From the NCBI GenBank assembly GCA_902622515.1, contig CACNQE010000014.1, forward strand, positions 1 to 37,464: a stretch of 37,464 nucleotides of DNA, given 5' to 3'. This DNA is from an uncultured SAR116 cluster alpha proteobacterium. Lineage in GTDB: Bacteria; Pseudomonadota; Alphaproteobacteria; Puniceispirillales; Puniceispirillaceae. Positions 16,169 to 37,464 of the stretch are shown here, piece by piece; the first letter of the stretch is position 1; each line of letters starts with the position of its first letter. Position numbers and translations under genes: made by a program. The notes under the pieces were generated by a model. That model ran no database searches. It worked only from the letters and a program-made list of their open reading frames with translations, and was not told the DNA's origin.

Positions 16169-16972
16169 ATGGCAAATGGTGAAAAAGATTTGGTTTTGGA
16201 AGAATTAGAAAATGGAGTTATGCGCCTCATTTTAAATGATGAAAAACGTCGAAATGCGCTCTCAGAAAATATGCTTGATGCTTTGCATGAAAAAATTATG
16301 AATTCAGCAGAAAACTCAAAAATTCGTGTTGTTATAATAAGTGCTAAAGGACCAGTATTTTGTGCAGGTCATGATCTTAAAGAGATTACACAGGCGCGTG
16401 ATCATAAAGATGACGGAATAATTTATTTTCAGAACCTATTTGATAAATGTAGTGAGGTTATGAAAGGCATTGTAACAAACCCAAAACCTGTTATTGCCGA
16501 AGTTAATGGTATTGCTACTGCGGCTGGTTGTCAGCTTGTTGCAAGCTGTGACCTTGCGATTGCCTCGGATGAATCGAAGTTTGCAACGCCTGGCGTGAAT
16601 ATTGGACTATTTTGTTCTACTCCAATGGTTGCTTTATCAAGAAATGTCTCCAACAAACATGCTATGGAAATGCTACTCACGGGGGACATGGTCGATAGCA
16701 AAAGAGCAGAACAAATCGGGTTAATTAATTTTTCTTGCGCAGAAAAAGTTTTGAGTAATGAGGTTAACGCACTCGCAAAAAAAATTGCTTCTAAATCTAG
16801 CTTGACCCTCTCTGTAGGAAAGAGAGCATTCTATCAACAGTCAGAAATGACGTTGGGAGAAGCATATGCCTATACTGCTAAAACAATGGTCGATAATATG
16901 CTCAAAAAAGACGCAAAAGAGGGAATTTCTGCCTTTTTAACAAAAAGAAAACCGCAGTGGCAGGATAAATAG
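16169..16972 (+). CDS. Enoyl-CoA hydratase/isomerase family protein, ECHDC3-type
   Basis: Crotonase-fold protein of 267 residues. The oxyanion-hole segments FCAGHDLKEI and NGIATAAGCQLVASCD are present, so it should bind an acyl-CoA thioester. Both hydratase glutamates are replaced: the family GCE position reads GCQ, and the PE position reads PG in FATPGVNIGLFCSTP. This is the signature of the ECHDC3 branch, whose reaction is not settled, so a classical hydratase is unlikely. Start ATG 16169 has GGAGA at 16158-16162. It lies between the DmdA-like gene and an acyl-CoA synthetase pseudogene in the same direction, so the three were probably one operon acting on an acyl-CoA. DmdD is unlikely because that enzyme also relies on glutamates. 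Confidence 0.88.
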   Translation: MANGEKDLVLEELENGVMRLILNDEKRRNALSENMLDALHEKIMNSAENSKIRVVIISAKGPVFCAGHDLKEITQARDHKDDGIIYFQNLFDKCSEVMKGIVTNPKPVIAEVNGIATAAGCQLVASCDLAIASDESKFATPGVNIGLFCSTPMVALSRNVSNKHAMEMLLTGDMVDSKRAEQIGLINFSCAEKVLSNEVNALAKKIASKSSLTLSVGKRAFYQQSEMTLGEAYAYTAKTMVDNMLKKDAKEGISAFLTKRKPQWQDK

Positions 16973-17448: not shown

Positions 17449-17587
17449 ATGGACGGTAAATGAACCCGCAGATATCGACATTATGATCGACTTTGGTGTG
17501 GATGCAATTGTTACAGATTATCCACCCAGACTTAAGAAATACCTCTCATCAAAAGGGATGAATTGGAACACTGCATTAAGTGGATAA
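17438..17587 (+). pseudogene. C-terminal remnant of a glycerophosphodiester phosphodiesterase (UgpQ/GDPD family)
   Basis: In the frame of TGG 17450 the DNA reads WTVNEPADIDIMIDFGVDAI, followed by VTDYPPRLKKYLSSKG and a TAA at 17585-17587. This is the last strand and helix of GDPD enzymes (pattern VWTVNEP, then GVDGIITDYP). Only about 45 codons remain, and everything upstream, including the HRG catalytic site, is missing. It abuts the acyl-CoA synthetase remnant at about 17430-17450, so a deletion probably joined two unrelated genes. Its end overlaps the stop of the convergent amidase gene by about 12 bases. Confidence 0.85.
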
Positions 17588-19894: not shown

Positions 19895-19998
19895 AAAAAT
19901 TTTACTTTCAAGCTACTATTAATAACGAGATAACTTAGTGGCGATGTATCTTCATTCTAGATTCTTGTGATTATATTTCGTAATTTTGTTGCTAAATT

Positions 19999-21063
19999 TT
20001 ACTTTAACCTGTTACCGTCCAAATCAAATATAAATATATCCTTAGAATCAACACTAACAGATACTGATATATCATCAGTTATCTCTTTGGCAGCCTCACT
20101 TGTCATTAAAGAGACAAATTTTTCATCTGTTCTAGCATCAAGATATATTAATTTTTCTCTTCCTAGAGGTTCTATAACTTGAATTTGGTGTGCGTCTTTT
20201 CCCTTTGATTTTTTAATTTGTGTTTTTTCAGGACGGATGCCAATTGTCACTTCGGAAGGTAGATCTTTTGCTTCCTTCTTATCCAATTTTACCGTAAAAT
20301 ATTTCGTCGTTATGGTGTCGTCATTAGTTTTTCCATTGCAGAAATTCATAGAAGGGGATCCAAAAAAGTCGGCAACAAAGAAGTTTTTAGGATTATTATA
20401 GATTTCATCTGGGGTGCCGATTTGTTCTATATCACCCTTGTTCATTATTACAATTTTGTCTGCTAATGTCATGGCCTCTTCTTGGTCATGGGTAACATAT
20501 ATAAATGTTTTTCCAAGCTCTTTGTGAATTCTTCCACACTCAGCTCTTAATTCTCTTCTTAATTTGGCATCTAGACTAGATAATGGCTCGTCTAATAAAA
20601 ATATTTGTGGTTCTGTAACTAATGTTCTGGCAAGAGCTATACGTTGTGATTCTCCACCAGAGCATTGAAATGGCATCTTTTTAAGGAGGTGCCCGATTTG
20701 GACTAGCTCAGCTACTTCTTCGACTTTCTTTTCCATTTCAGTGTCGGAAACTTTTTTCATTCTAAGTCCGAACTTAATGTTGTCTTCGACTGTTTTATTG
20801 GGGAATAATGCATGATTTTGGAACACCATTCCTATGCCTCTTTTTCCCGGTTCAATATCGTTCACCACGTTATCGCCAATAAGAATTTCACCCTCTGTCG
20901 GGTCCTCAAATCCAGCCAGCATTCTTAAAGTGGTTGTCTTGCCGCATCCAGAGGGACCCACGAGCACAACAAATTGACCGTCATCAATATCAAAATTGAT
21001 ATTTTTAACAGCATCTACAATACCAAAAGATTTTTTTAATGATTTTATTTGAATATGACCCAT
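19999..21063 (-). CDS. ABC transporter ATPase, MalK/UgpC (CUT1/spermidine-like) type
   Basis: ATPase of the importer encoded at 19999-24399, 354 residues. Walker A is GPSGCGKT (36-43), the Q-loop MVFQNHALFP, Walker B IFLLDEPLSSLD and the switch VTHDQEEAM. The signature is unusual: CSGGESQR (134-141) where nearly all relatives have LSGGQ. The C-terminal part (from about 240) is the OB-fold regulatory domain with IGIRPEKTQI, as in MalK. It starts 13 bases after the permease gene at 21077, with AGGAT upstream of the ATG. Confidence 0.92.
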   Translation of the reverse strand: MGHIQIKSLKKSFGIVDAVKNINFDIDDGQFVVLVGPSGCGKTTTLRMLAGFEDPTEGEILIGDNVVNDIEPGKRGIGMVFQNHALFPNKTVEDNIKFGLRMKKVSDTEMEKKVEEVAELVQIGHLLKKMPFQCSGGESQRIALARTLVTEPQIFLLDEPLSSLDAKLRRELRAECGRIHKELGKTFIYVTHDQEEAMTLADKIVIMNKGDIEQIGTPDEIYNNPKNFFVADFFGSPSMNFCNGKTNDDTITTKYFTVKLDKKEAKDLPSEVTIGIRPEKTQIKKSKGKDAHQIQVIEPLGREKLIYLDARTDEKFVSLMTSEAAKEITDDISVSVSVDSKDIFIFDLDGNRLK

Positions 21064-21076
21064 TTATAATCCTAAT

Positions 21077-21952
21077 CTATTTTCTTATCATTCCAAAACT
21101 AAATCCACGCGCAAGATGCTTGCGGATAGTTATACCAACTATGATGAGTGGGATTGTAATTCCCACCGATAGTGCTGCCTGTCTGCCATATACACGACCC
21201 TCTGAAGATCCCTCATATTTTGCAAGTTCCACCGGAAGCGTGACCGCATCAGTTTTTGAAAGTATGAATGCGACTAAATACTCTGACCATGTGAGAATTA
21301 GAATGAAGAGAAACGTTGCGAGAAGTCCCGAACGAATTACGGGAAAAACTACTTCAGTAATGATGGTCCATCTATTTGCCCCCATAATTTCAGCAGCTTG
21401 TTCAAGTTCTATTGGGACTTCATCAATAAAGCTTTTTGTCATCCAAACTGCGTATGGGAGGGTTGTAATAAAATAGATAGCAATAAGGCCGGTGAGAGAG
21501 TCAATCAGTCCGATAGTTGTATAATAAAGTGATAAGGGTCCAACAAGAACGATAGGAGGCACCATCCTTAACATTAGTAATTGAAACATTCGTGTTTCTG
21601 ATAACACTTTGTATCTGGAAACGCCATAAGCAATGAAAGCACCAAATGAAACAGATAAAAATGTTGATATGAATGATATAATCGTTGAGTTACGAAGTGC
21701 TGTGAATGGTTTCTGAACGGATTGAGCATATTGAGTTTCTGCATGCTCCATTGCACCCCCCCAAACATTGTTATAATTGCTCATAGTTGGTTCTTCTGAC
21801 CAATATACAGGTGGCCATGCTAGCCAATCTTTGTCAGGCTTGAATGAAGTAGCTACGATCCAGAATAGTGGGAATAATACAATCAATAGCCAAACTGTAA
21901 GAAGTGTATACCGTATTACATTATCTAAATTTTGTTTTTGAGATTTAGTCAT
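21077..21952 (-). CDS. ABC transporter permease, MalG/UgpE type
   Basis: Inner-membrane permease, 291 residues with about six hydrophobic segments. The N-terminal half has the PDKDWLAWPPVYW periplasmic stretch typical of MalG-like proteins (family pattern FKP..E....P). The coupling loop is EQAAEIMGANRWTIITEVVFP (EAA motif). The protein ends in a basic tail, RKHLARGFSFGMIRK. It starts two bases after the stop of the partner permease gene at 21955, so it is translationally coupled. Confidence 0.92.
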   Translation of the reverse strand: MTKSQKQNLDNVIRYTLLTVWLLIVLFPLFWIVATSFKPDKDWLAWPPVYWSEEPTMSNYNNVWGGAMEHAETQYAQSVQKPFTALRNSTIISFISTFLSVSFGAFIAYGVSRYKVLSETRMFQLLMLRMVPPIVLVGPLSLYYTTIGLIDSLTGLIAIYFITTLPYAVWMTKSFIDEVPIELEQAAEIMGANRWTIITEVVFPVIRSGLLATFLFILILTWSEYLVAFILSKTDAVTLPVELAKYEGSSEGRVYGRQAALSVGITIPLIIVGITIRKHLARGFSFGMIRK

Positions 21953-21954
21953 TT

Positions 21955-22875
21955 CTAGTTTGCCTGCACTTGTGCTATTCGTTTATTTTCTTTTTGCAGA
22001 ATTTTAATAGCTGTGAGAATTATTACTACCATCATCATCATAACAATGTAGCTCATGGCAGCTGCCTTCGACCAATCAAAGTAATACCAGGTGTTAAGAT
22101 AAATTAGCACTGGTATGGTTTCTGTAGCGGTTCCTGGTCCCCCTTGAAATATTGCCCATGTTTTTGGGAACTCTGCCATGGCTTCTAAAAACCGTAAAAC
22201 AAGAGCTAACACAATTATTGGTCTAAGCAGTGGGAGTTGAATTTCATAGAAAATCTTGAGGCGAGAGGCTCCAAGTATTTGAGCCGCTTCTACAGGCTCT
22301 TTAGGAAGAGACGCAAGCCCTGCCATCATTATTATGAAACTAAATGGTGCCCAATTCCAAACTTCCATTAAAACGACTGTTAACAAAGCAATATCAGGAT
22401 TGGTAATCCACATAATCAACATATCTCTTCCAACGATAGATGATAGTATACCGTTTAGAGGCCCCTTTTGATAAAGGATCATTTCAGCTGTATATGCGAT
22501 AACAATCGGCACTGTAAGCATTGGAATAATAAAAATAATGTAATAAAACCATTGAAGCCTAAAATTTTTATACATTAGTAAGGCCAGTCCAAAGCCTATT
22601 ACAAAACAACCCACTGTAGAGGCAAGAGCAAATCCTAAGGACCTAACGATAGCTATATGAAATCGGCTATCAAAAACCACTTCTGAAAATATATCCAAAG
22701 CATACCATTCCGATGCCCACCAACCCTCTGAATAAATTGAGTAGTAATTAAATGAAAGGTATAATTGCAATAACAATGCAGGCCCTAGAATCAGCATAAT
22801 TGATGCAATAAGGGGAAACAAAACCATTTTTTTATAACGCTTCGTGCGTTGAAGCATAATTTCGGAACGTGCCAT
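21955..22875 (-). CDS. ABC transporter permease, MalF/UgpA type
   Basis: Partner permease, 306 residues. A basic N-terminus (QRTKRYKKM) leads into the first of about six membrane segments. The periplasmic segment with FNYYSIYSEGWW and the coupling loop EAAQILGASRLKIFYEIQLPLLRP fit the sugar/polyol importer class. The gene starts 66 bases after the binding-protein gene, and that gap contains a perfect 12-bp hairpin. Substrate specificity cannot be read from the permease. Confidence 0.92.
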   Translation of the reverse strand: MARSEIMLQRTKRYKKMVLFPLIASIMLILGPALLLQLYLSFNYYSIYSEGWWASEWYALDIFSEVVFDSRFHIAIVRSLGFALASTVGCFVIGFGLALLMYKNFRLQWFYYIIFIIPMLTVPIVIAYTAEMILYQKGPLNGILSSIVGRDMLIMWITNPDIALLTVVLMEVWNWAPFSFIIMMAGLASLPKEPVEAAQILGASRLKIFYEIQLPLLRPIIVLALVLRFLEAMAEFPKTWAIFQGGPGTATETIPVLIYLNTWYYFDWSKAAAMSYIVMMMMVVIILTAIKILQKENKRIAQVQAN

Positions 22876-22902
22876 TTAATACTCTTGAAGATAATTAGAG
22901 GA

Positions 22903-22931
22903 ACCACCTGGCTCGATTAGAGCCAGGTGGT
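22903..22931 (-). promoter_or_regulatory. Perfect 12-bp hairpin between binding-protein and permease genes
   Basis: Bases 22903-22914 (ACCACCTGGCTC) pair perfectly with 22920-22931 around a five-base loop. On the transcribed minus strand the hairpin follows the binding-protein stop by about ten bases. It is followed by a moderately U-rich TTCCTCTAATT, not a clean U-tract. It is best read as a partial terminator or 3' stabiliser that keeps binding-protein mRNA in excess over permease mRNA. Confidence 0.85.
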
Positions 22932-22941
22932 GAATAAATGA

Positions 22942-24399
22942 TTAAGCAGGAGCGTCAACTTTTGGCATCACCATTTTGTAACTCTCAAGCTCAGCTTTAA
23001 GCTTACGCTTTCCAGTCTTCTTAACGATACCAGCAAACTCTTCCTGAGTTTTCTTTATACCTTCGGATACTGAAATTGACCCAACATACGCCTCTGATAA
23101 GTTCTTATTAAGAATGTCAGTAAACTCCATATATCCAGTCAGATAAATTGGAGGAGCAGCAACTTGCAAGCATTGCTGAATTCCCTCTAAACCACCCTTG
23201 GTGTAAGTTTTGGCAACCATATCACTAGTCATATGAGATTTAGCCCATGGATCGTGGAAAGTATTAGCTGGATCGGCAACGATTGCCTCACTCTCCTGCT
23301 CAGTTGTTAACCACATTGCTAAGTAAGCTGCGAGTGCCTTTCTTGGGCTATGTTTGTTAACTAACAGAGCACCTAATGGATCTGAGATAGACCTATATAT
23401 GCGCTTACCGCTAAAATCTGAGCCTGGGACAAGGCCATATTTCCACTGGCCAACTGTCTTAGACTTTTCTGGATTTTCGTTTAACGCAACAATACCATCC
23501 CAATATTGCCCAGAGAAAACCTTACCTCCGGTCATTCGTGGAATCATTTGTGGTGTTCCCCAACCTGGTGCCTCTGGATGAGAAACATCTTTATATTTCA
23601 TGTATGTTTCCCAAGCGTATACTGCTTCATCAGTATCCATTGTTGGATTCATGTCATCATCGAAAGTAAAACCGCCTGCACTATAAAGTTGCATGAACCA
23701 CCACGTTGCACCATTGGCTCTGTTTCTTAAGTTCATGGAACCGTAATAATCATCAGCTGTCGCTTTTGAAGGAGGTGCGAAGAATTTCATCCATTCAATT
23801 TCTTCTTCCCAGGTTCCTGGCCATGTTGGGCTCTTTCCAAACTTGTCTTCGTAGGCTGCAGCATTTTTTTCTACTGTTGCCCAATGAATAAATTGGGTGT
23901 GAACGTTTCCGTCTGTTGGCATTCCATAAGTCGCTCCTTTGTACTTCATGAAAGTATCAAACGTACCAACAGCATTATAGTCGAACCCAACTTCATCCAT
24001 GTATGAATCTAACTCTTCGAGCATTCCAATAGATGCTAATGTCGGTATCATATTTGAATTAATGTGGAATAAGTCAAACTCAGGTGATTTTGCAACGCCC
24101 TCCGCAACAACCGCAGGGGGTGCAACGAAAATTGATATGTCTTTTATGTCTTTAAAGTTTGTTCCTGTCTCTGCAGCAAACTTTTCACATGAAGCTTTCA
24201 TTGGTGCATAATAAAGAGCCCATATAATCCCCTTTAAGTCGGCTGTTCCAGCACTCTTAGCAGCTTCGATGATCTTTTGATTTACTGCATTATGTCCACC
24301 GGCTGTAGCCATTTTTGGCAAAGCCATAAGGGCAGTAGTGGAAATCGCAGTATTCATAAAATCTCTGCGAGACAATAATTGTCCTAGTTTTAATCGCAT
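22942..24399 (-). CDS. ABC transporter extracellular solute-binding protein, family 1, Tat-exported
   Basis: Periplasmic binding protein for the importer encoded downstream, 485 residues from ATG 24399. The N-terminus MRLKLGQLLSRRDFMN carries a twin-arginine motif (SRRDFM, residues 10-15), a hydrophobic stretch and a cleavage site near ATAGG, so it is probably exported folded. The start is fixed by a strong GGGAGGG at 24405-24411 on the minus strand, six bases upstream. The longer reading from TTG 24423 would place that Shine-Dalgarno inside the gene and is rejected. Residues such as GTWEEEIEWMKFF and GQYWDGIVALNENPEKS fit family 1 proteins. The ligand is not predictable. It is divergent from the CocE-type hydrolase gene. 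Confidence 0.9.
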   Translation of the reverse strand: MRLKLGQLLSRRDFMNTAISTTALMALPKMATAGGHNAVNQKIIEAAKSAGTADLKGIIWALYYAPMKASCEKFAAETGTNFKDIKDISIFVAPPAVVAEGVAKSPEFDLFHINSNMIPTLASIGMLEELDSYMDEVGFDYNAVGTFDTFMKYKGATYGMPTDGNVHTQFIHWATVEKNAAAYEDKFGKSPTWPGTWEEEIEWMKFFAPPSKATADDYYGSMNLRNRANGATWWFMQLYSAGGFTFDDDMNPTMDTDEAVYAWETYMKYKDVSHPEAPGWGTPQMIPRMTGGKVFSGQYWDGIVALNENPEKSKTVGQWKYGLVPGSDFSGKRIYRSISDPLGALLVNKHSPRKALAAYLAMWLTTEQESEAIVADPANTFHDPWAKSHMTSDMVAKTYTKGGLEGIQQCLQVAAPPIYLTGYMEFTDILNKNLSEAYVGSISVSEGIKKTQEEFAGIVKKTGKRKLKAELESYKMVMPKVDAPA

Positions 24400-24518
24400 C
24401 TTTTCCCTCCCGTAAGTTTGCAATTTATTTTTTTAATCGATGACATTTAGTTTAGATTCATTAGTTAGTATTTACTTATCTAAATTTATCGATAATCTAA
24501 TTGATGATGAAACGCAAA

Positions 24519-27906: not shown

Positions 27907-28464
27907 TCAAATCCTAGCCCCTGTTTCTGCGTCATATGCTTGCCTCGAAAGTTGTGTTAAATCTTGGCCGGTAAGTCTGATCCAACTTGCTGGTGCCGTG
28001 GGGTGTGAAGCGCTATGAACAGAGCCGGGCGGAAAATAAATACCAATTCCAGGTTGCATCTCAATAGTTTGGTCTAACACAACCTTTGTTGCTTTATTGG
28101 CTGGTTTATTTCCATTTTTGTCTTGGTATATGTTCATAGTTGTAACACCAGTAACCTGAAAATATAAAGCCCATGAACTTCCGTGATCGTGGGGTTTCCC
28201 AGTATTAGGGGTAGAAGTTGCATGATATAAGATCTGAAGCTTATTACTGTCTTCTCCCCAAATACGAGCATTCCCGTCCGAAAGGAGTTGTGACAGCTTT
28301 GATTTTATCTTTGGAAAATTAAGTAATCCATTAAGCAATGTATTTGCAATATTTTCAAAACTATTACTTGGTACATTATCATCGCTGATTTCTGCAGATA
28401 AAGCATGTGCTAGTGCAGAAATCGAATGGGATAAATCATCATCTAACTGAATTACGTGTGACAT
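27907..28464 (-). CDS. Cysteine dioxygenase-like cupin
   Basis: Cupin-fold protein of 185 residues resembling the cysteine-dioxygenase type I/thiol-dioxygenase group. Its N-terminal helical part is followed by the barrel with KPHDHGSSWALYFQVTG (H92, H94) and PPGSVHSASHP (H150), a 3-His iron site without the cupin glutamate. VTTMNIYQD is a barrel strand of that group. The substrate might be a thiol, but other relatives have no known activity. GGGAG lies about nine bases upstream of the ATG. It is the downstream partner of the disrupted hydrolase gene, 39 bases away on the same strand. Confidence 0.75.
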   Translation of the reverse strand: MSHVIQLDDDLSHSISALAHALSAEISDDNVPSNSFENIANTLLNGLLNFPKIKSKLSQLLSDGNARIWGEDSNKLQILYHATSTPNTGKPHDHGSSWALYFQVTGVTTMNIYQDKNGNKPANKATKVVLDQTIEMQPGIGIYFPPGSVHSASHPTAPASWIRLTGQDLTQLSRQAYDAETGARI

Positions 28465-28503
28465 TAGCTTACACTCCCAAAGTTAGTAGGTATCCTTACC
28501 TTC

Positions 28504-29331
28504 TTATTTTATGATATTTTTTACAAGCCATTTGCTAACTATTTCAGTAACTTCATTCTCTTTATTTTTATAAAAATGGTCACAATTTTTTATTATTTCA
28601 ACATCACATTTACCAGAGCTGGCAGCAGCAAATGCTTCTGCCGGATAAGCTTCAGGAATTTCTAAATCGCCTCTGATAAACAACGATGGACATTTTATTT
28701 TGGGTGCTGTTTGAACAGTATTTGGCATGGTTGTAAGCCTATCTATGTAGCTATTTGCAGTTGTTACATACCACCAACCCGGGAGTAACAATAGCTCATT
28801 TCCTTTTCCTTCTGAAATCATCTGAATTGCTTGTTCTCGAAGTTCATTAGTTTTACTCCCGCCTAACAACCCAGTTTTTGTAGCGAGTTTTTCCGCCACT
28901 TTTCCACCACCATGCGCTGATAATAATATTGAAGCAGGAGTATGTGGGTTTCTAGCTGCATGCTGAACTGCTAAAAATCCACCATTACTATGACCAATTA
29001 AAATTGGGTTTTTAAATCCCTTTCTTTCTAGCCATTTTGAAGCAAACGCATTATCTGCAATGCCTTCTCCTGTTGTTTGAAATGCCGCACCGACAGCTTT
29101 CCTTGAGTCACCTATGCTCATTATGTCGTGTCCTCTTCGATTGAACGAAAGGCATGCAAATCCTAGTTGGCAAAGTCGAGGTGGTCAAAAACGTGGGGCA
29201 CCAGTGTAAAAATTCATCGTATTTCCATGACAAATCATTATGGCGCCTTTTGCAGGCTTTTCTTCTGGTTCGTAAAATATACCATCTAATGAAATTGTAT
29301 CTGTTTTAATCCCGATGAGTTTAAGCTTCAT
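28504..29331 (-). pseudogene. Alpha/beta hydrolase interrupted by one in-frame TGA
   Basis: Read from ATG 29331 the gene would give a 275-residue alpha/beta hydrolase. Residues 1-48 (MKLKLIGIKTDTISLDG, later MICHGNTMNFYTGAPRF) end at TGA 29185-29187. The same frame then continues PPRLCQLGFACLSFNRRGHD into the long open part with nucleophile GHSNGG, FIRGDLEIPEAYP and KNCDHFYKN (catalytic His). The expected residue at the stop is Leu, so one T-to-G change in TTA explains it. No other lesion is visible, so inactivation is very recent or the stop is a sequence error. A shorter protein from ATG 29121 would lack the oxyanion strand HGNTMN. Confidence 0.87.
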
Positions 29332-29688
29332 ATCATGAACAGTTTTAATATTATTAAACTTTAAAGAAATTTATAATAGAGAAAAGAAATTTATAATAGA
29401 GAATTAGCTGAGTCTACAAGATATCCTAAGATGAAGGTCAGTTGAATTTAAAATATTTGATAAAGATCGGGTGATTTATAAGGTATCAGGAAGGCCCAAA
29501 TGCCAATAAATGGAGTAGGGTACCGAACCTTAAAAAATAAAAAATATCATTTTATAAATTTGCTAGGACATCTGGTATTTTTAAAAAATTTGTAATTCAA
29601 TACTTTATTCGATTGTTAGAATGTGGTGAGCTTAGAAAAGCAAAAATAGATTGATGAAATTTAAAAAATTTATCCAAGGAGATTGTTC
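29332..29688. other. Intergenic region with a 20-bp tandem duplication
   Basis: About 350 bases without a supportable gene, between the divergent hydrolase pseudogene and the deacetylase-like gene. It must contain the promoters for both. The only structured element I see is an exact tandem repeat of 20 bases: 29363-29382 is repeated at 29383-29402 (unit begins AAAGAAATTTATAATAG). It lies 32 bases upstream of the pseudogene start. AAGGAG at 29676-29681 is the ribosome binding site for the next gene. Confidence 0.6.
29363..29402. repeat. 20-bp exact tandem duplication
   Basis: Two exact copies in direct orientation with a period of 20 bases (G at 29366 corresponds to G at 29386), in the leader of the disrupted alpha/beta hydrolase gene. 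The unit is AT-rich and contains TATAAT, which resembles a -10 box on the plus strand. Confidence 0.95.
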
Positions 29689-30582
29689 GTGAAACCAATT
29701 CATCCTAATCAAAGACTGCCTTATTCTGCAATTAATGATAGAGCACCACTTAAGATGCCTGATAATGCAAGGGTAGTGATCTGGCCAATTCTAGCGTTGG
29801 AGGTTTGGGATATCTCAAGACCTATGGCAAGGATGATTATCACTCCGCCGCAAGGTGCACCGATGCTTCCTGATTTTCCTAATTGGAGCTGGCACGAATA
29901 TGGTATGCGTGTTGGATTCTGGCGAATAAAAACCATGTTAGATAGACTCGGAATTAGACCGACTGTTACCTTAAATGCAAGAACCTGTCTAGAATATCCG
30001 CGTGTTGCAGAGGCTTGTCTGGAGGCCGGCTGGGAGTTTAACGCACATGCTTATGAGCAAATACCTATGCATAAGCTTGATGATGAAAGTTCTAGCATTC
30101 AAAAAACAATGGAGATAATTCAGAATTTTGCAGGTAAAAAGCCACGAGGTTGGTTTGGGCCTGGTCTCACACAGACTTATGACACAATGGATTATCTTGC
30201 TGATAATGGTGTGGAATATATTGGAGATTGGGTGCTCGATGATGAACCAGTATGGGTCAAAACAAAGACAAAACCTATTGCAGCATTGCCTTATAATTAT
30301 GAATTACATGACATTGTGATGATGGCAATTCAGCATCATGAGTCACACACCTACAGGGACCGAACACTTGATTATTTTGATACTCTTTATTCAGAAAGTG
30401 AGGATAGGCCTAAAATTATTGCTGTAGCTATGCATCCTTACCTTTCTGGCTCTCCTCATCGTATTCGTTATGTAAGAGAGGCTTTTGAGAGAATGTTAGA
30501 AAATCCCGGTGTTGTATGTTGGGATGGAGAACAAATTCTTGACTGGTTTAGTTCGCAAAGTGAAAAGCCCTCTTCTATTTAG
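29689..30582 (+). CDS. Polysaccharide deacetylase/PuuE-like (NodB-fold) protein
   Basis: NodB-fold carbohydrate esterase-like protein of 297 residues. The order of motifs is RLPYSAINDR near the N-terminus, ISRPMARM, FPNWSWHEYGMRVGFWR, then FNAHAYEQIPMHKLDDE holding the histidines near the active site. RGWFGPGLTQTYDT and the C-terminal AVAMHPYLSGSPHRIRYV complete the fold. This arrangement resembles allantoinase PuuE and related uncharacterised deacetylases; the metal-binding DDG pair of true chitin deacetylases is absent. GTG 29689 is chosen as start because AAGGAG ends seven bases upstream, whereas TTG 29683 is almost touching it. Amide or N-formyl/carbamoyl hydrolysis is plausible. It leads a run of plus-strand genes with the amidase and the gamma-glutamyltransferase-like gene. 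Confidence 0.83.
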   Translation: MKPIHPNQRLPYSAINDRAPLKMPDNARVVIWPILALEVWDISRPMARMIITPPQGAPMLPDFPNWSWHEYGMRVGFWRIKTMLDRLGIRPTVTLNARTCLEYPRVAEACLEAGWEFNAHAYEQIPMHKLDDESSSIQKTMEIIQNFAGKKPRGWFGPGLTQTYDTMDYLADNGVEYIGDWVLDDEPVWVKTKTKPIAALPYNYELHDIVMMAIQHHESHTYRDRTLDYFDTLYSESEDRPKIIAVAMHPYLSGSPHRIRYVREAFERMLENPGVVCWDGEQILDWFSSQSEKPSSI

Positions 30583-30664
30583 AGTTTTTATAAAATGTAA
30601 TGATATTTATATTCTAATAATCTTGTAATAAGAATATGCCTCTTAATAATTAACGAGCGTGATA

Positions 30665-31849
30665 ATGTATAATAAGGAACAAGTCAGAGCTAATGTGCCT
30701 CACGATTTAGCAGCCCCTATAAGTGGAACGGATACTGGCTCGCTAACAGGACTTACATTTATGGTAAAAGATTTATTTGAGGTTAAGGGGCATAAAACAG
30801 GAAATGGTAGCCCAGATTTTTTGAAACATAATAAAGAGTCAACAAAAACGGCTCCTCTTATTCAAAAGCTTTTAGATAGTGGCGCTAGTCTAACTGGCAT
30901 GACAATTTGTGACGAATTTTTTTATAGCCTCACAGGTATTAACGCTCATTATGGCTCTCCGCTCAATGTTCGGGCAACAGGAAGAATGGCAGGTGGTTCT
31001 TCATCTGGTTCTGCAGCAAGTGTGGCAGCTTCATTGTGTGATTTTTCCATTGGAAGTGATACCGGTGGTTCTGTTAGAGTGCCTGCTGCTTTTTGTGGAT
31101 TATTTGGTATTCGGCCAACTCATGGTGAGATTGAATTAACTGGTGCCACTGCGATGGCACCCTCATTTGACACACCTGGTTGGTTTGCAAGAGAAGTTGA
31201 TTTATTAGAAAAAATTGGTGATGTTCTTCTGCCTGATCTAGAAGAAGATATTTCTAAAACTAAATTGCATATCGCAACAGATTCATTTAACCAAGCAACG
31301 GATGAAGTGAAGGTTGAGCTGTTTTCAGTGTGCGAACGGTTGGAAGATAAAATGCCTTTTAATAAATCTATCATAATCAATAATGATGATTATTTAAAAT
31401 GGCGTGAAGCATTCAGAATCATTCAAGCATACGAAATTAAATCGACTACCTTGAAATGGGTAAAGGCCTACCAGCCAAATTTAGGACCGGGCATCAAAGA
31501 GCGTTTCGAAATGGCTGATAAAATTAATGAAGAAGAATATCAAAACGCAGAAAAAATACGTCAATCTGTTTGCAATAGGATGGATGAGATTTTAGGCGAA
31601 AATTCTGTTTTTCTGATACCCACCGCCCCAGTGATTGCTCCATTGATATCAACTCCAGCGAACGAACTTGAGACATTTAGACAAAATACTATGGCTTTGA
31701 CTTGTATTTCTGGATTGACGGGGGTACCACAGATCACCATGCCGGTTTCGGAATATTCAGGATGTCCGATAGGTTTATCCATTATTGGAAAAAGACAGAC
31801 AGATAAAATGCTTTTAAAATTAGCATCAGAAATAACAAGAAAGCTTTAA
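30665..31849 (+). CDS. Amidase-signature hydrolase (GatA-like fold)
   Basis: Amidase of 394 residues from ATG 30665. The triad is readable: Lys35 in TFMVKDLFEV, cis-Ser in AGGSSSGSAAS (about 112-114) and nucleophile Ser136 in GSDTGGSVRVPAAFCG. The C-terminal half is shorter than in GatA and no GatB partner is near, so it is a catabolic amidase rather than a tRNA amidotransferase subunit. GTG 30659 is a possible alternative start, but the only Shine-Dalgarno-like bases (GAG at 30655-30657) fit ATG 30665 better. It follows the deacetylase-like gene by 82 bases and precedes the gamma-glutamyltransferase-like gene by 54 bases, probably in one operon. Confidence 0.9.
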   Translation: MYNKEQVRANVPHDLAAPISGTDTGSLTGLTFMVKDLFEVKGHKTGNGSPDFLKHNKESTKTAPLIQKLLDSGASLTGMTICDEFFYSLTGINAHYGSPLNVRATGRMAGGSSSGSAASVAASLCDFSIGSDTGGSVRVPAAFCGLFGIRPTHGEIELTGATAMAPSFDTPGWFAREVDLLEKIGDVLLPDLEEDISKTKLHIATDSFNQATDEVKVELFSVCERLEDKMPFNKSIIINNDDYLKWREAFRIIQAYEIKSTTLKWVKAYQPNLGPGIKERFEMADKINEEEYQNAEKIRQSVCNRMDEILGENSVFLIPTAPVIAPLISTPANELETFRQNTMALTCISGLTGVPQITMPVSEYSGCPIGLSIIGKRQTDKMLLKLASEITRKL

Positions 31850-31903
31850 TTAAAAAATAATAATTGATATAAAATTTTTGAGTAATTTAGAAGGAATATG
31901 CCA

Positions 31904-33499
31904 ATGCGGGATTTTCAGCAACCTGGACGCTCTCCTGTATTTGCCTCTAATGCAATGGTTAGTACTTCTCATCCTTTGTCATCTGCCGCAGCACTTGATG
32001 TCTTGAGAAAAGGTGGTAATGCTGTTGATGCAGCTCTTGCAGCAGTCTCTGTTCAGTGTGTTGTAGAACCCGCTTCTACAAGTGTTGGTGGAGATTGTTT
32101 TTGTTTATATGCACCTGTAGATAGTCAGTATCCAGTAGCAATGAATGGCTCAGGGTGTGCTCCAAAAAGGTTATCTTTGAATTGGATGATTGCTAATGGT
32201 TATGATTCTATACCACAACAATCTCCACATTCCGTTACTGTTCCAACAGCAGTTGATGCATGGGTCACATTGAATAAAGATTACGGAACAAAGCCTCTTG
32301 GGGACTTATTACAGTATGCCATTGAATATGCAAGAGATGGTTACCCTGTAGGTCAGAGGGTCGCTTTTGATTTTGCTAATACGTCTGATTTGATAAAACA
32401 AGACAAAGACTTATCTAAATTATTTTTGTTTAATGGGAAAACATTGCCAAACGGTTTTTATCATAAACAGCCCAACTTAGCTAAAACTTTATCTGAGATT
32501 GGTAAAAATGGAAGGGATGGTTTTTTTTCTGGTTGGGTAGCAGATGATATTATTAAAAAGTTAAATTCTCTAGGTGGCTTTCACCAAAAAGATGATTTTG
32601 ATGATGCTATTGCAAATTATGTGAAGCCAATTAGTTCAGAATTCAGAGGATATAAAATTTGGCAATGTCCGCCTAATGGTCAGGGGGTAATAGCTTTATT
32701 GTTATTAAATATGGCATCAGAAATGAATTGCTTTGGAGATGACCCGATTAATCTTGAACGCATACATTATGAAATTGAGGCGGGAAAACTTGCTTATAGA
32801 GATAGGTCTGCTGTTTTAGCAGATCCCAAATTCCATTCAGTGCCTGTAGACCAACTTTTGTCAAAAAAATATGCAAAAGAGCTATTAAGCCAAATAAGGG
32901 CCGACAAGGCGATTTCTTCCCTACCAACATCTTCGCTACCCAAACATTCAAATACAGTTTATATCACTGTAATTGACCAAAATCGAAACGCTTGTTCGCT
33001 TATTAACACAGTTTATAATTCTTTCGGATCCGGTCTTCTAGCCCCTAAATCTGGAGTTTTGCTGCACAATAGAGGTATGGGTTTTGTTCTTGAGGAAGGT
33101 CATCCAAATTGCCTAGAACCAGGAAAACGACCATTGCATACTATCATACCTGGCTTAGTAACCAAAGATGACAAACTTGTAATGTCATATGGAGTTATGG
33201 GAGGGGAATATCAGGCGTTTGGGCATATGCAATTTTTATCTCGTTTTTTTGATTATGGACTTGATATTCAAACTGCACAGGATAAACCACGCTTCTTTCC
33301 CGATCCTTTTTCTGAAAATATAGATATGGAGACGACAATACCACGCAGTATTCAAAATGATTTAGTAAAGATGGGTCATCAGGTAAGAAAAGCATCGATA
33401 CCAATCGGGGGCTCACAAGCAATCCACCTTGACCAAAATTCAAATGTATTGACCGCAGGCTCTGATCCTAGAAAAGATGGTTTGGCAGTGGGTTTCTAG
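31904..33499 (+). CDS. Gamma-glutamyltransferase/acylase-family Ntn hydrolase
   Basis: Member of the gamma-glutamyltranspeptidase family, made as a proenzyme that cuts itself before a catalytic threonine. From ATG 31904 it has 531 residues. The processing site is KHSNTVYITVID, with Thr351 as nucleophile; downstream SLINTVYNSFGSGLLAP and NRGMGF are substrate-pocket strands. The N-terminus MRDFQQPGRSPVFASNAMVSTSHPL is the usual start for this subgroup and has no signal peptide, so the enzyme is cytosolic, unlike periplasmic GGT. AAGGA (31891-31895) fits ATG 31904 (eight bases), not ATG 31898 (two bases). Substrates may be gamma-glutamyl or other N-acyl amides. It converges with the cupin gene, three bases apart. 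Confidence 0.9.
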   Translation: MRDFQQPGRSPVFASNAMVSTSHPLSSAAALDVLRKGGNAVDAALAAVSVQCVVEPASTSVGGDCFCLYAPVDSQYPVAMNGSGCAPKRLSLNWMIANGYDSIPQQSPHSVTVPTAVDAWVTLNKDYGTKPLGDLLQYAIEYARDGYPVGQRVAFDFANTSDLIKQDKDLSKLFLFNGKTLPNGFYHKQPNLAKTLSEIGKNGRDGFFSGWVADDIIKKLNSLGGFHQKDDFDDAIANYVKPISSEFRGYKIWQCPPNGQGVIALLLLNMASEMNCFGDDPINLERIHYEIEAGKLAYRDRSAVLADPKFHSVPVDQLLSKKYAKELLSQIRADKAISSLPTSSLPKHSNTVYITVIDQNRNACSLINTVYNSFGSGLLAPKSGVLLHNRGMGFVLEEGHPNCLEPGKRPLHTIIPGLVTKDDKLVMSYGVMGGEYQAFGHMQFLSRFFDYGLDIQTAQDKPRFFPDPFSENIDMETTIPRSIQNDLVKMGHQVRKASIPIGGSQAIHLDQNSNVLTAGSDPRKDGLAVGF

Positions 33500-33502
33500 C
33501 GT

Positions 33503-34084
33503 TTAATCTGAGGCTAAACCAGCATTAAACTTAAATCCCACCTTTTCAAATTGCTTAACGAGGTTAGGTTCGACTGAATTAATTTTATCAGCTGCTGCTG
33601 GAGTGAAAGCGATATCGTTCATATCATGAACGCCACCAGATATTATAACCTGCAAGAGACCATCTGTTGTTCCAGAGTTTTTAAAAGAGCGACATACACC
33701 TGGTGGAACGGATATAGTATCAAACTTTTCCAAAATGATTGTGTCTGCCCCATCATCATTCCAACTCACTTCAAATTGGCCTTCTAGAACAGTAAAGGTC
33801 TCATAAGTATTTACATGATTATGTAAACCAGGCCCTTGTCCTGGAGGACACTTTGCGTGCGTCATGGTAATCCCACCAGCCCCAACAATAGGTGCTCCGG
33901 CATTAATAGGAGTATTTCCTTCTGCTAGGTCAAGACCTATTACAGATAAAAGCTGCCTCGCATAAACTACATCCCTTCCTTCTGTAGGGATATTGGCGTC
34001 TTTTTGAATTGCAAGTGGCTCAAGTTCTTTAAATTTTGAAACTCTTTTGGTCATTTCTTCACGGGTTATATGGTTTGTTTTCAT
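33503..34084 (-). CDS. Cupin-domain protein
   Basis: 193-residue protein with one central cupin barrel. Motif 1 is GPGLHNHVNTYETFTVLEG (H88, H90, E95), the strand EVSWNDDG follows, and motif 2 is the degenerate VPPGVCRSFKNSG. That motif lacks the usual third histidine, so metal binding may differ from the norm. An N-terminal helical arm of about 60 residues precedes the barrel. The gene is divergent from the fumarylacetoacetase-family gene, with a 165-base shared upstream region, which hints at joint regulation. The reaction is unknown. Confidence 0.83.
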   Translation of the reverse strand: MKTNHITREEMTKRVSKFKELEPLAIQKDANIPTEGRDVVYARQLLSVIGLDLAEGNTPINAGAPIVGAGGITMTHAKCPPGQGPGLHNHVNTYETFTVLEGQFEVSWNDDGADTIILEKFDTISVPPGVCRSFKNSGTTDGLLQVIISGGVHDMNDIAFTPAAADKINSVEPNLVKQFEKVGFKFNAGLASD

Positions 34085-34249
34085 TGCTCTCTCGCTAATG
34101 TGATTAAAACACTTTGACTCTAGTGATGAATATTATCTCAATGATATTTTCAATTATTTTATTCTATTTTGACAATAAATGGAAAATAATCTTTGATAAA
34201 TAGAGACTTTAATAATTATACAATTTGAGTAAAATATAAGGAGATAAAT

Positions 34250-35092
34250 ATGAAGTTGGTTAGATTTGGTTCAGAAGGAAATGAAAAACCAGGATTAATC
34301 GACGAGCAGGGGAATTTGTGTGATTTATCGTCCTATCTCGATGATATTTCTGGCCCAAACCTCTCTGGAGATAAGCTGCTAGAAATTTCAAAAATTGATA
34401 CAATTAACCTTCCAAAAATTGATAAATCGACACGTTTAGGCCCGTGCGTAAATAATGTTGGAAAGTTTATTTGCATTGGACTCAATTATGCAGACCATGC
34501 AAAAGAAGCTGGTATGGAAGTGCCGCCGGAGCCAGTCATTTTTATGAAGGCGACTAGTGCTATTTGTGGGCCAGCAGATCCAATCTTATTGCCAAGGGGA
34601 AGCCTAAAAACTGACTGGGAAGTTGAGCTGGCCGTTGTGATAGGAAAAAAAGCAAAATATGTCAATTTAGATGAAGCGATGTCATATGTCGCCGGATATG
34701 CTGCCAGCAATGATATTTCTGAGCGCACTTATCAGTTGGAAGGTACAGGGCACTGGACTAAAGGAAAATCATGCGATAGCTTCGGTCCGCTTGGTCCTTG
34801 GCTTGTCACCAAAGATGAAATACAGGACCCCCAAAACCTATCCATGTGGTTAAGTGTAAATGGTAAAAAAATGCAAGATGGTTCAACTAAAACCATGGTA
34901 TATGGGATTGCGTTTCTTGTTCACTATATAAGCCAATTTATGAGTTTGATGCCAGGAGATATAATCTCAACTGGTACCCCACCAGGAGTTGGTCTTGGTA
35001 TGACACCACCGGTTTATTTGAAATCTGGTGATGTTGTAACTTTGGGAATTGAAGGCTTAGGTGAACATAGACAATTGGTTGTCGCCGAATAG
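34250..35092 (+). CDS. Fumarylacetoacetate hydrolase (FAH) family protein
   Basis: Cytosolic C-C bond hydrolase or decarboxylase of the FAH family, 280 residues. The catalytic half has GLNYADHAKEAG (His83), the metal ligands Glu124 and Glu126 in DWEVELAVVIG and Asp155 in AASNDISERT, and the closing GDIISTGTPPGVGLGM and IEGLGEHRQ motifs. It is close in layout to proteins labelled ureidoglycolate lyase or 2-keto-3-deoxy-fuconate hydrolase; sequence alone cannot choose. AAGGAG lies about eight bases before ATG 34250. It is the last catabolic gene before the cyclase pair and is divergent from a cupin gene. Confidence 0.9.
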   Translation: MKLVRFGSEGNEKPGLIDEQGNLCDLSSYLDDISGPNLSGDKLLEISKIDTINLPKIDKSTRLGPCVNNVGKFICIGLNYADHAKEAGMEVPPEPVIFMKATSAICGPADPILLPRGSLKTDWEVELAVVIGKKAKYVNLDEAMSYVAGYAASNDISERTYQLEGTGHWTKGKSCDSFGPLGPWLVTKDEIQDPQNLSMWLSVNGKKMQDGSTKTMVYGIAFLVHYISQFMSLMPGDIISTGTPPGVGLGMTPPVYLKSGDVVTLGIEGLGEHRQLVVAE

Positions 35093-35304
35093 ACCATTAA
35101 AACTGGAACAAAATAATACAAAAACAAAGATTTTTATAAATTAGCAGCGTTCTCTCATCAGGTGGTTTTTTGTCTGTTGATATAGAACTTAATTTATTTC
35201 TTTATAATTTTGGAATAGATAGATTATTATCAGATGTACGGATATAGCATTAGCTTCATTAAGTTCTAAAAATTTTGAGAAAAAGGTTACATGGGATTTG
35301 AGAG

Positions 35305-37053
35305 ATGGAAAGAAGGTTAGCGACAATACTTGCTCTAGATGTTGTAAATTTTAGTAAATTAATGGCTGAGGATGAAGTAAAAACTCTAGAAAATCTTGGT
35401 TCTGCTCGTTCTTTGATTGACTCATGTATTGCGGAACACGAAGGCCGAATATTTAATACGGCAGGGGATAGTGTGCTAGCAGAATTTTTTAGTCCTGTGA
35501 AAGCTGTTGAATGCGCCGTTAAAATACAAAATGCCACAAAGGTAAAAAATAGTGAGTTATCAGAATCCGATAAAATGGATTTTCGAATTGGTATCAATAT
35601 CGGTGATGTAATGGTACAAGATGGTAATTTGTTCGGAGACTCAGTAAATATTGCTGCACGACTAGAATCGCAGTCTATAACAGGAGGCATTTGTATCTCT
35701 CAAAGTGTTTTTGACATGGTAAATATGAAAGTCAAAGTATCCTATGAGGATGCAGGTGAGTTGGAACTTAAAAATATTGGACGGCCAATCAAAGCATATA
35801 ATGTATTAAAATGCAAAGGTGCTCAACGAGGCTTTGTAAGTTCAGAGGATAAGCCTAAAGTAGAAATAACTCTCAAGGAGCCCGGGTCGCTTGCGGTTCT
35901 TTTGTTTAAAAATTTGTCAAACGACGAGGAGCAATCTTATTTTTGTGAAGGATTTTCAGAAGACCTAATTTCTGCTCTTTCAAGGTATCGAAAACTCCTG
36001 GTAATTTCTAGCAATGCTAGTTTTTCCTATGCATCAAAAGAAAAAAAACATTCTGAGATTGGTCAAGAGCTTGGTGTTCGTTATCTTCTTGAAGGAAAGG
36101 TTCGAAAGTTAGGTAATCGAGTGCGCATTAGCGCGGGTCTATTATCAACAGAAACAGCTGAAACACTATGGTCTGATAATTTTGATACCAATATGGATGA
36201 GATTTTTGACGTGCAGGATAATCTGATAGAGACCATTGTGTCTACAATTGTAGGAAACGTTGAAAGAGACGAAATTAAAAAAATCTCCAATGCAAAACCC
36301 GAAAATCTGAAGGCATATGACTTAGTTCTTCAGGGCCTCGAATATCATAAGAGAAGTTCCGTTTCTGCTGAGAATAATAAAAAGGCGTTAAGTCTTTTTA
36401 CACAAGCAACAGAGGTTGATCCATCGTATGCAAGGGCATTTGCCTGGAAGACTTGTTCGTTAGCAAATAATGCTGAGTGGTTTCAAGACGAAATGCCCGA
36501 GGGCTGGATGCAAGATGCTTTTGCATCGGTTAATAAAGCAATGGAATTAGACCCTAATGATCCTGAGGCGCATCGTATAATGGGAGCGGTAAAGCTAATG
36601 TTTGAGGGTGATATGGAAAAAGCGTTGTTCCATCACGAGAAGGCTATCGAGATTTGTCCCAGTGATACTTATCACATTGCTAGATATGCAATATTGCTTT
36701 GTTACCTGGGTGAGCCAGATAAAGGTCTCAAAGAAATTGAGCGGGCTATAAGAATAGACCCTTTTTGTTCAGAACTGATACTAGAAACTCAAGGCATGTG
36801 TTATTATTTGATTGGAAATTACGAAAAAGCAATTTCAAGCTTTAAAAAAATGCAAATCGATACTAGAACTAGCCTTTTTTATAAAGCGGCTTGTCACCAA
36901 AAGTTAGAGCAGACTGATTTAGCTAATAATATATTGGAGCTAGCTTTTAATGAAAGTGGTATGGATATAGAAAAATTCATTACTACGCAGTTTTTTCAAG
37001 ACGAAAGTATGAAAAATTCATTAGTTAATGTCTTAGAAGCCATTAATGCTTAA
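35305..37053 (+). CDS. Class III adenylate/guanylate cyclase with TolB-like and TPR regions
   Basis: Predicted cytosolic signalling enzyme of 582 residues that makes cyclic AMP (or GMP). The N-terminal cyclase domain (about 1-170) keeps the two metal aspartates, Asp12 in ILALDVVNFSKL and Asp55 in NTAGDSVLAEF. It also has GDSVNIAARLES, whose Asn-Arg spacing fits transition-state residues. Residues about 190-340 match the TolB/FlgO-like region found after many alphaproteobacterial cyclases (LAVLLFKNLSNDEEQSYFCE). The rest forms helical TPR repeats such as AMELDPNDPEAHRIMGAV and AIRIDPFCSELI, for protein contacts. No membrane segment is seen. It converges with a second cyclase gene. Confidence 0.92.
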   Translation: MERRLATILALDVVNFSKLMAEDEVKTLENLGSARSLIDSCIAEHEGRIFNTAGDSVLAEFFSPVKAVECAVKIQNATKVKNSELSESDKMDFRIGINIGDVMVQDGNLFGDSVNIAARLESQSITGGICISQSVFDMVNMKVKVSYEDAGELELKNIGRPIKAYNVLKCKGAQRGFVSSEDKPKVEITLKEPGSLAVLLFKNLSNDEEQSYFCEGFSEDLISALSRYRKLLVISSNASFSYASKEKKHSEIGQELGVRYLLEGKVRKLGNRVRISAGLLSTETAETLWSDNFDTNMDEIFDVQDNLIETIVSTIVGNVERDEIKKISNAKPENLKAYDLVLQGLEYHKRSSVSAENNKKALSLFTQATEVDPSYARAFAWKTCSLANNAEWFQDEMPEGWMQDAFASVNKAMELDPNDPEAHRIMGAVKLMFEGDMEKALFHHEKAIEICPSDTYHIARYAILLCYLGEPDKGLKEIERAIRIDPFCSELILETQGMCYYLIGNYEKAISSFKKMQIDTRTSLFYKAACHQKLEQTDLANNILELAFNESGMDIEKFITTQFFQDESMKNSLVNVLEAINA

Positions 37054-37072
37054 ATGGGGCTAAGCTATCCTT

Positions 37073-37104
37073 AATTCACGTTTAAAAAAGAAACGTTTTG
37101 AATT
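37073..37104. terminator. Possible bidirectional terminator between convergent cyclase genes
   Basis: AATTCA plus CGTTT (37073-37083) pair with AAACG and TGAATT (37091-37104) around a seven-base A-rich loop, with a three-T bulge on the right arm. The T-rich and A-rich flanks would suit either direction. The stem is weak and AT-rich and touches the minus-strand stop codon, so this is a tentative call. Confidence 0.35.
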
Positions 37105-37464
37105 ATTTATCTGTTGAGTTTTGTGCTTCGTTCATTATGTGTTTCATTTTTAGATAAACGTTTTCGAGGTTTAATAAGTCTTCTTTTCCGAAAGACTTCT
37201 GGTTTAATTCGATTTTTAAATGACTGGTATCGATTATTAATCGCTCTGCTTCTTCTGTTTGTTCGCTTATCACTTCATAATATTTTACAGGACGAGAAAT
37301 ACCTTTCAGTTTTATTTCACCTACTTCTTCAAGCGCAAATAAATCGCGTACCAAAAGATAAGTTTCTTCAGATACAATAATTTTATTTGGTTGTGCTGAA
37401 CTTTCTAATCGCGAAGCTAAATTAACGGGGGATCCAATGACTGTGTAATCTAAACGATTCTCAG
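37103..37464 (-). CDS. Class III adenylate/guanylate cyclase, C-terminal part (continues past window end)
   Basis: Partial gene entering from the right edge on the minus strand. The open frame covers 37103-37464 without a credible start, and its first visible residues ENRLDYTVIGSPVNLASRLES are the core of a class III cyclase catalytic domain. It continues with IIVSEETYLLVRD and GEIKLKGISRPVKYYEV, the usual end of that domain, and a 50-residue helical tail. The catalytic domain is therefore C-terminal, unlike in the neighbouring cyclase, and any sensor or membrane domain would lie outside the window. The reading that begins at the internal start 37354 would cut the domain and is not used. Confidence 0.88.
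   Translation of the reverse strand, partial: ENRLDYTVIGSPVNLASRLESSAQPNKIIVSEETYLLVRDLFALEEVGEIKLKGISRPVKYYEVISEQTEEAERLIIDTSHLKIELNQKSFGKEDLLNLENVYLKMKHIMNEAQNSTDK

Follow-up and report, generated by a model that had tools for sequence, protein, structure and literature searches.

A conserved pair of PuuE-like and amidase genes in a SAR116 genus and its possible role in the breakdown of cyclic imides

The stretch of DNA analysed here, 37,464 nucleotides of an uncultured SAR116 cluster alphaproteobacterium (contig CACNQE010000014.1, hereafter the window), belongs to a genome of 2.11 Mb in 39 contigs and carries at positions 29689-35092 a row of five genes for a PuuE-like protein, an amidase, a hydrolase of the gamma-glutamyltransferase (GGT) fold, a cupin and an FAH-family protein. 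The first two of these genes are a true conserved neighbour pair, which is the proposed functional core of the locus. As this pair is adjacent in many bacteria, it probably opens a small nitrogen-containing ring and releases ammonia. We tentatively favour, at somewhat less than an even chance, the more specific reading that the PuuE-like enzyme would open an imide ring and the amidase would then hydrolyse the half-amide, the other three genes being local additions. All five genes that the first-pass annotation had named for this part of the window were recovered, in the families it had given, from open reading frames (ORFs) and from Pfam and NCBIfam profiles. They are listed here together with the gap that precedes them.

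29122..29688, no strand: gap upstream of the PuuE-like gene, possible promoter region, no ORF of 100 or more amino acids
29689..30582, plus strand: PuuE-like protein of the polysaccharide-deacetylase fold, 297 amino acids (PF01522 32 bits; TIGR03212 101.9 bits)
30659..31849, plus strand: amidase-signature hydrolase of the PRK08310 type (PF01425 207 bits; NF006169 456 bits, cut-off 391)
31898..33499, plus strand: Ntn hydrolase of the GGT fold, 533 amino acids (PF01019 450 bits; TIGR00066 372.5 bits, cut-off 357.85; nucleophile Thr353)
33503..34084, minus strand: single-domain cupin, 193 amino acids (PF07883, Cupin_2, 41.5 bits)
34250..35092, plus strand: FAH-family hydrolase (PF01557, FAA_hydrolase, 246 bits; NF053535 393 bits, cut-off 500)

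The frame of the PuuE-like gene spans 29683-30582 on the plus strand; its probable start is the GTG at 29689, where the first-pass annotation had also placed it, with an AAGGAG at 29676-29681. Residue numbers of this protein count from the TTG at 29683.

The PuuE-like and amidase genes as conserved neighbours

The search covered one genome for each of 84,980 species, in which at least 583 relatives of the PuuE-like protein were confirmed, and the best 80 loci were kept; their genes were located by tblastn together with a score-filtered set of ORFs, since calling by longest frame overlooked genes in GC-rich loci. A PuuE-like protein with 56.5% identity or more to that of the window occurs in 47 loci, which were treated as its subgroup; a locus was regarded as evaluable when its sequence ran on for 600 bases or more beyond the PuuE-like gene. 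An amidase gene lies directly downstream on the same strand in 34 of the 44 evaluable subgroup loci (31 of 41 without the three loci of the genus itself); ten have none there, and three further loci end too soon. The tblastn matches of the two genes end 9-173 base pairs (bp) apart in the paired loci. Among the 33 more distant loci (52-56% identical) an amidase stands next door in three, at 26-29% identity. Most paired loci belong to Alphaproteobacteria, one each to Burkholderiales and Thermoleophilaceae (Actinomycetota), and two are named only as Proteobacteria; outside the genus their amidases are 40-53% identical to the window amidase. The distances among PuuE-like proteins agree with those among amidases (r 0.84, with none of 2000 permutations as high), an agreement to which shared species history contributes a part. 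No description of this bacterial pair was found in the literature searched, the search being non-exhaustive.

Conservation of the pair extends to the catalytic residues of the amidase. The catalytic triad of the amidase signature family is Lys-cisSer-Ser, and Lys37, Ser115 and Ser138 are conserved without exception in the 34 paired loci; the window protein also passes the PRK08310 model.

The full row of five genes has a much narrower distribution. It is contiguous in six of the ten genomes of the genus (G000, G001, G002, G003, G007 and G009) and partly present at a contig end in G005 and G006, whereas G004 (64% complete) and G008 (61% complete) show no copy, G008 having only a distant amidase paralogue (39%). 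None of the loci kept from relatives outside the genus carries the five genes together. Thus the row is real and maintained inside the genus, yet it is not one conserved module, and of the neighbourhood that the first-pass annotation had proposed only the PuuE-like and amidase genes are conserved more widely.

In sister clades, outside the amidase-paired subgroup, the recurrent partner of the PuuE-like gene is an FAH gene. In Limnohabitans, Bradyrhizobium and Tardiphaga loci the FAH gene is flanked by two PuuE-like genes, and the cluster also holds ABC transporter genes of the branched-chain type (by eye). On a Variovorax plasmid and a Streptomyces plasmid FAH adjoins a PuuE-like gene that falls into one clade with the second Limnohabitans copy (66-75% identity), in clusters that also carry MFS, TauE/SafE and amidohydrolase genes; the FAH proteins of Limnohabitans, Variovorax and Streptomyces are 55-68% identical. 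A Mesorhizobium plasmid holds a PuuE-like gene without FAH, in a cluster of SDR, mandelate-racemase-type, tartrate-dehydrogenase and asparaginase genes. The relatives on plasmids are, where annotated, labelled polysaccharide deacetylase. The mixture of PuuE-like, amidase and FAH genes noticed at first pass therefore consists of real partners, but these are combined differently from clade to clade. Two Pseudolabrys loci (L069 and L072) carry three PuuE-like genes, an amidase, ABC transporter genes and an orotate phosphoribosyltransferase gene near a gene for sulfoacetaldehyde acetyltransferase. On contig C11 of G000 (L040, 3506-4375 and 9417-10298) the genome of the window itself holds a second PuuE-like paralogue (42-44% identical), 5 kb from another FAH gene and in the company of flavin-reductase-like, dehydrogenase-like and ABC transporter genes (by eye).

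Active-site residues and the possible substrate

The closest solved relative of the PuuE-like protein, by sequence and by fold, is the allantoinase PuuE. An AlphaFold2 model (mean predicted local distance difference test score 86, residues about 41-70 poor) matches PuuE 3cl6 best in the PDB (Z 33.4, root-mean-square deviation 2.3 over 282 residues), followed by two near relatives of PuuE; 3rxz (Z 29.5) and HP0310 (Z 29.0) rank lower, and classical deacetylases lie near Z 15-19. By sequence PuuE scores 78 bits and HP0310 28 bits. The window protein is nevertheless far from the PuuE family model TIGR03212, whose cut-off is 424.6 bits.

Across 123 aligned rows (the window and 122 from the loci, leaving out rows with fewer than 150 aligned residues, frames outside 230-700 amino acids and identical rows) the clade of the window protein (tree groups G1, G2, G2b and G3) has Glu40, His122 and Gln126, and His71 as well except in L056. 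Gln126 lies four residues after the first metal-site His, at a place occupied by Trp in PuuE (3cl6, 1z7a, 3s6o and the PuuE on contig C16 of the same genome) and by the second metal-site His in HP0310 and 3rxz; the Trp characteristic of PuuE is thus replaced. According to PMC3084791, HP0310 binds metal and PuuE does not. Since the second metal-site His is missing from the window protein, a metal-free mechanism is inferred, and the enzyme probably works without a bound metal. The tree, a quick search of 116 of the 123 rows that omitted six near copies (L032-L037) and the stray hit L108, has a branch (SH-aLRT support 99) that sets off the 46 rows of the window subgroup; the two true PuuE rows lie apart from them. 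Two Nitrospinota copies in L054 and L056 (75% identity) are nested among Alphaproteobacteria rows in this tree and were likely acquired by gene transfer.

In the mechanism we propose, the PuuE-like enzyme would open a small cyclic imide, or a closely similar cyclic amide, to a half-amide, and the amidase, a predicted half-amidase, would hydrolyse the latter to a dicarboxylic acid and ammonia; the GGT-fold, cupin and FAH proteins may process further amide or keto-acid intermediates or serve other tasks. Ring opening is favoured because PuuE is itself a ring-opening enzyme. The suggestion of the first-pass annotation that the locus could serve a route for a cyclic or acylated amide survives in this form, as cyclic-amide opening followed by the amidase within the conserved pair, but not for the five genes as a module. 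The seven paired loci closest to the window beyond its genus are L058-L064, and a dicarboxylate product would fit the surroundings of six of them, L058-L063 (PuuE-like protein 70-73%); L064 begins with the PuuE-like gene itself. In all six a CaiB-type coenzyme A (CoA) transferase gene is divergent to the pair, as is an enoyl-CoA hydratase gene, which was clustered in five of them and has a tblastn match in L062 too. The L061 CoA-transferase is nearest to the models for succinate-glutarate (cut-off 750) and mesaconate (cut-off 700) CoA-transferases, on which it scores 319.8 and 288 bits.

Several observations weigh against this reading. First, no reported activity was found for any member of the PuuE-like subgroup of the window, and the window protein probably stands outside the metal-binding HxnM/imidase branch, as it has Gln instead of the HP0310-type His and matches PuuE better than HP0310. 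Second, the partnership with the amidase has gaps: among the ten evaluable subgroup loci without it are L053 (G069), and the orthologues in G069 and G095, which are the nearest to the window protein in the tree, lack an adjacent amidase, as do the two Nitrospinota copies. The G069 and G095 orthologues adjoin instead TauD, VOC-like, SDR, enolase-superfamily and M19 dipeptidase genes and another GGT gene. Third, L058-L063 are closely related to each other, and genes of the kinds found beside them are common; among 20 neighbourhoods of the window-type GGT elsewhere in the class a hydratase relative occurs in four and a CaiB-like frame (by eye) in three. Finally, isochorismatase and deaminase-like neighbours in sister clades would also fit ureide or purine-like substrates.

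The GGT beside the G069 and G095 orthologues is 25-28% identical to that of the window and has a signal-peptide-like leader by eye, and the G069 copy reaches 405 bits with TIGR00066. As it is of a different type it does not represent the same partnership; it may hint at a gamma-glutamyl or peptide substrate. A conserved gene pair between the M19 dipeptidase gene and the enolase-superfamily gene in L039 (3796-6116) and L038 (7574-9900) encodes a 567-amino-acid protein that matches no Pfam family and a protein with DUF3726 (204 amino acids in L039); the DUF3726 profile scan covered L039 only.

The main rival is a cyclic ureide of the hydantoin, dihydropyrimidine or substituted barbiturate type, from which the PuuE-like enzyme would make an N-carbamoyl acid whose carbamoyl group the amidase would remove. 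This is fairly unlikely, but it owes its place to the sister clades, where an isochorismatase nearest to biuret amidohydrolase and RutB adjoins and two plasmids carry amidohydrolases nearest to TRZ/ATZ-type and purine deaminase models. The substrate of PuuE is itself a ureide ring, and after PRK08310 the best model of the window amidase is the AtzE family, with allophanate hydrolase also listed and biuret hydrolase among the PDB matches. All these models are, however, matched well below their cut-offs, and the CoA-transferase and hydratase genes of L058-L063 suit a dicarboxylate better, common as such genes are. An orotate phosphoribosyltransferase gene follows the pair in two Pseudolabrys loci, but it is an ordinary PyrE confined to one genus, and the pyrimidine link it suggested was set aside.

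If imide opening by the window protein is extended to its relatives, the large unnamed clade with Glu, His and Gln could consist of metal-independent hydrolases of cyclic imides or amides, distinct from PuuE and from the HP0310-like branch, with two standing partnerships: an amidase in the window type, or FAH in Variovorax, Limnohabitans, Bradyrhizobium and Streptomyces. In this proposal, which we regard as rather doubtful, imide nitrogen would become accessible to SAR116 and other marine bacteria through the amidase type. Were it true, at least 583 genes of the clade would encode small-ring hydrolases, perhaps sortable by two neighbour rules (amidase or FAH adjacent), and an imide-type source would be added to the organic nitrogen that marine SAR116 may use.

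The GGT-fold, cupin and FAH genes and their surroundings

The GGT-fold protein exceeds the cut-off of TIGR00066, and its nucleophile Thr353 aligns with position 391 of the Escherichia coli enzyme. R114, N411, Q430, D433, S462 and S463 (E. coli numbering), which we take to be the gamma-glutamyl contact positions, are replaced in all six cases, by S, Y, R, G, H and T, while T409 is kept (alignment with 2e0w); on these residues the reading as a gamma-glutamyl enzyme was rejected. No signal peptide is seen by eye. The nearest solved structure is 2nlz (342.6 bits), presumably of the YwrD type, whose residues in the same six places are S, Y, R, N, H and T; chains of 5hft (HpxW) match at 121 and 83 bits. 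The window cupin has no NCBIfam match at E 0.001, the ureidoglycine aminohydrolase model TIGR03214 included. The FAH protein is nearest to L-2,4-diketo-3-deoxyrhamnonate hydrolase (8gsr, 292.6 bits), but it scores below the cut-off of NF053535, the model for 2,4-didehydro-3-deoxy-L-rhamnonate hydrolase.

Relatives of the three genes were counted around the 80 loci by tblastn (E 1e-6, at least a quarter of the query covered) in the fetched stretch of up to 10 kb on each side. FAH relatives occur near 14 loci, three of the genus, one of Pseudolabrys, nine directly after a sister-clade PuuE-like gene and one elsewhere, whereas cupin relatives occur near seven and GGT relatives near five. Outside the genus the amidase-paired loci show no conserved association with any of the three; the exceptions are weak cupin relatives (37-38%) at 4-5.5 kb from the pair in L060-L062 and the one Pseudolabrys FAH. 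L097 has another GGT relative (30%) 4 kb away. The window type of GGT is present in 90 of 289 genomes of the class, its own included (E 1e-110), and the 20 neighbourhoods mentioned above were chosen from the better-scoring places, some at contig ends being passed over and L159 having its GGT at the edge. None of the 20 contains the pair or any PuuE-like gene. Two of them have weak amidase matches (24%) and one has an FAH relative (44%); the commonest neighbour is the hydratase family. The GGT thus finds no support there as a regular partner of the pair. CocE-type genes lie near six of the 80 loci, three of them genus loci, but CocE is not claimed as a partner because the genus genomes hold up to three CocE matches each.

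Strands and gaps allow a single operon only for the PuuE-like, amidase and GGT genes, which follow each other in one direction (gaps of 76 and 48 bp); the cupin gene converges with the GGT gene, 3 bp away, and FAH reads away from the cupin gene after a divergent spacer of 165 bp. The upstream gap contains TTTATA-16-TATAAT at 29370-29397, but the scan that gave this site found 27 promoter-like sites in 28400-35400 against a mean of 23.2 in shuffled sequences, no better than chance, and a terminator scan was likewise at chance level. An IolC/DUF2090 gene (L034, 10600-12510) immediately precedes the PuuE-like gene in G007 and, judged from a matching C-terminus, in G003 as well, but is absent from the window; the region is therefore a patchwork. 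Taken together, the GGT-fold, cupin and FAH genes appear to have joined the pair locally in the SAR116 genus.

It is possible but quite unlikely that the five genes make up a single pathway specific to the genus; the GGT-fold protein would then be an amide hydrolase resembling oxamate amidohydrolase, FAH would cleave or decarboxylate a keto acid and the cupin would bind or convert an intermediate. The contiguity of the row in the genus, with its partial copies at contig ends, argues for such a pathway, as do the recurrence of PuuE-like and FAH genes in other clades, the cupin relatives near three paired loci and the precedent of HpxW, described below, for a GGT-family enzyme in nitrogen-ring breakdown. 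The GGT neighbourhoods of the class point the other way, with no neighbour family in more than four of the 20, and so do the position of the cupin and FAH genes outside the operon, the likeness of the FAH protein to a sugar-acid hydrolase and the patchwork nature of the region.

Other genes of the window were noted as well. An alpha/beta hydrolase frame at 28504-29121 (minus strand) encodes 205 amino acids; its G007 counterpart has 292 (L034:12757-13635), and the G009 match is equally short. The minus-strand set at 17576-24423 consists of an ABC transporter (a binding protein without Pfam match, two permeases and a MalK-type ATPase) followed by a 772-amino-acid amidase-domain protein, and is possibly an amide importer operon. 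At 14852-16102 (plus strand) lies a gene for a GcvT-fold protein whose top model is dimethylsulfoniopropionate demethylase (378.7 bits, cut-off 410), adjoined by an enoyl-CoA hydratase gene at 16169-16972. At the end of the window (35305-37462) genes for two proteins with adenylate-cyclase domains lie on facing strands; the first protein has TPR repeats, and the second, named by eye, is truncated by the window end.

Weaker readings and comparison with known systems

An N-deacylase role of the PuuE-like protein on a small acylated amine, in the manner of carbohydrate esterase family 4 and with the amidase as an unrelated clean-up enzyme, is improbable: the superfamily and the Pfam label polysaccharide deacetylase are shared, but in the clade Gln stands where the second metal His would be, the nearest fold is that of PuuE with classical deacetylases far behind, and an amidase as partner suggests that amide bonds are hydrolysed in succession.

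The least probable reading, which we regard as very nearly discounted, is the one first offered, that the five genes are a module for the breakdown of ureides (allantoin). Each fold does have a counterpart in the allantoin pathway, and PuuE is the nearest solved structure of the PuuE-like protein. However, the genome has its own allantoin set on contig C16, beside urease genes (by eye): a PuuE-UraD fusion (TIGR03212 473.5 bits, above the cut-off, the UraD half being below its own), AllA (NF009932 162.5 bits, cut-off 160, the cut-offs of narrower models not being reached) and a cupin that fits ureidoglycine aminohydrolase TIGR03214 (288.6 bits, cut-off 200), which the window cupin does not. The window PuuE-like protein is only 25% identical to the C16 PuuE and lacks its Trp. 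The window should not be annotated as allantoin breakdown.

Compared with PuuE itself (3cl6, TIGR03212), the window protein has the same fold and likewise no second metal-site His; at 23-25% identity it differs in having HxxxQ and WHEYG where PuuE has HxxxW and YEYG. The GGT-fold protein shares most of its replaced contact positions with 2nlz-type homologues. In the imidase/half-amidase route of the Blastobacter type a cyclic imide is converted to a half-amide and then to a dicarboxylate; the step logic is the same as that proposed for the pair, the likeness being one of description only.

The closest precedent, which favours the imide reading of the pair, is the nicotinate pathway of Aspergillus nidulans. 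PMC9304392 proposes, from deletion strains and accumulated metabolites, that 3-hydroxypiperidine-2,6-dione is opened by HxnM, kin of HP0310 and PuuE, and that the amidase HxnN hydrolyses the half-amide. As in the window pair, a relative of PuuE and HP0310 would thus open the ring and an amidase would free ammonia. According to the same paper HxnM shares 64% identity with a cyclic imide hydrolase homologue of Pseudomonas putida, and its closest structural relative is HP0310, whereas the window protein is nearer to PuuE and has Gln126 in place of the second metal His; HxnM is set apart here by description only, and we infer the HP0310-type His as a marker of the HxnM/P. putida branch.

The first-pass annotation had regarded a GGT homologue as foreign to pathways of this kind. 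This is contradicted by HpxW, a GGT homologue which is an oxamate amidohydrolase in bacterial urate breakdown (PMC5270733, PMC3560190); YwrD is said there to resemble HpxW (PMC5270733), and hpxW is often misnamed ggt (PMC3560190). The window differs from this system in lacking an operon of the hpxWXYZ type, in having an amidase below the AtzE cut-offs, and in a link between GGT and the pair that is found in the genus only.

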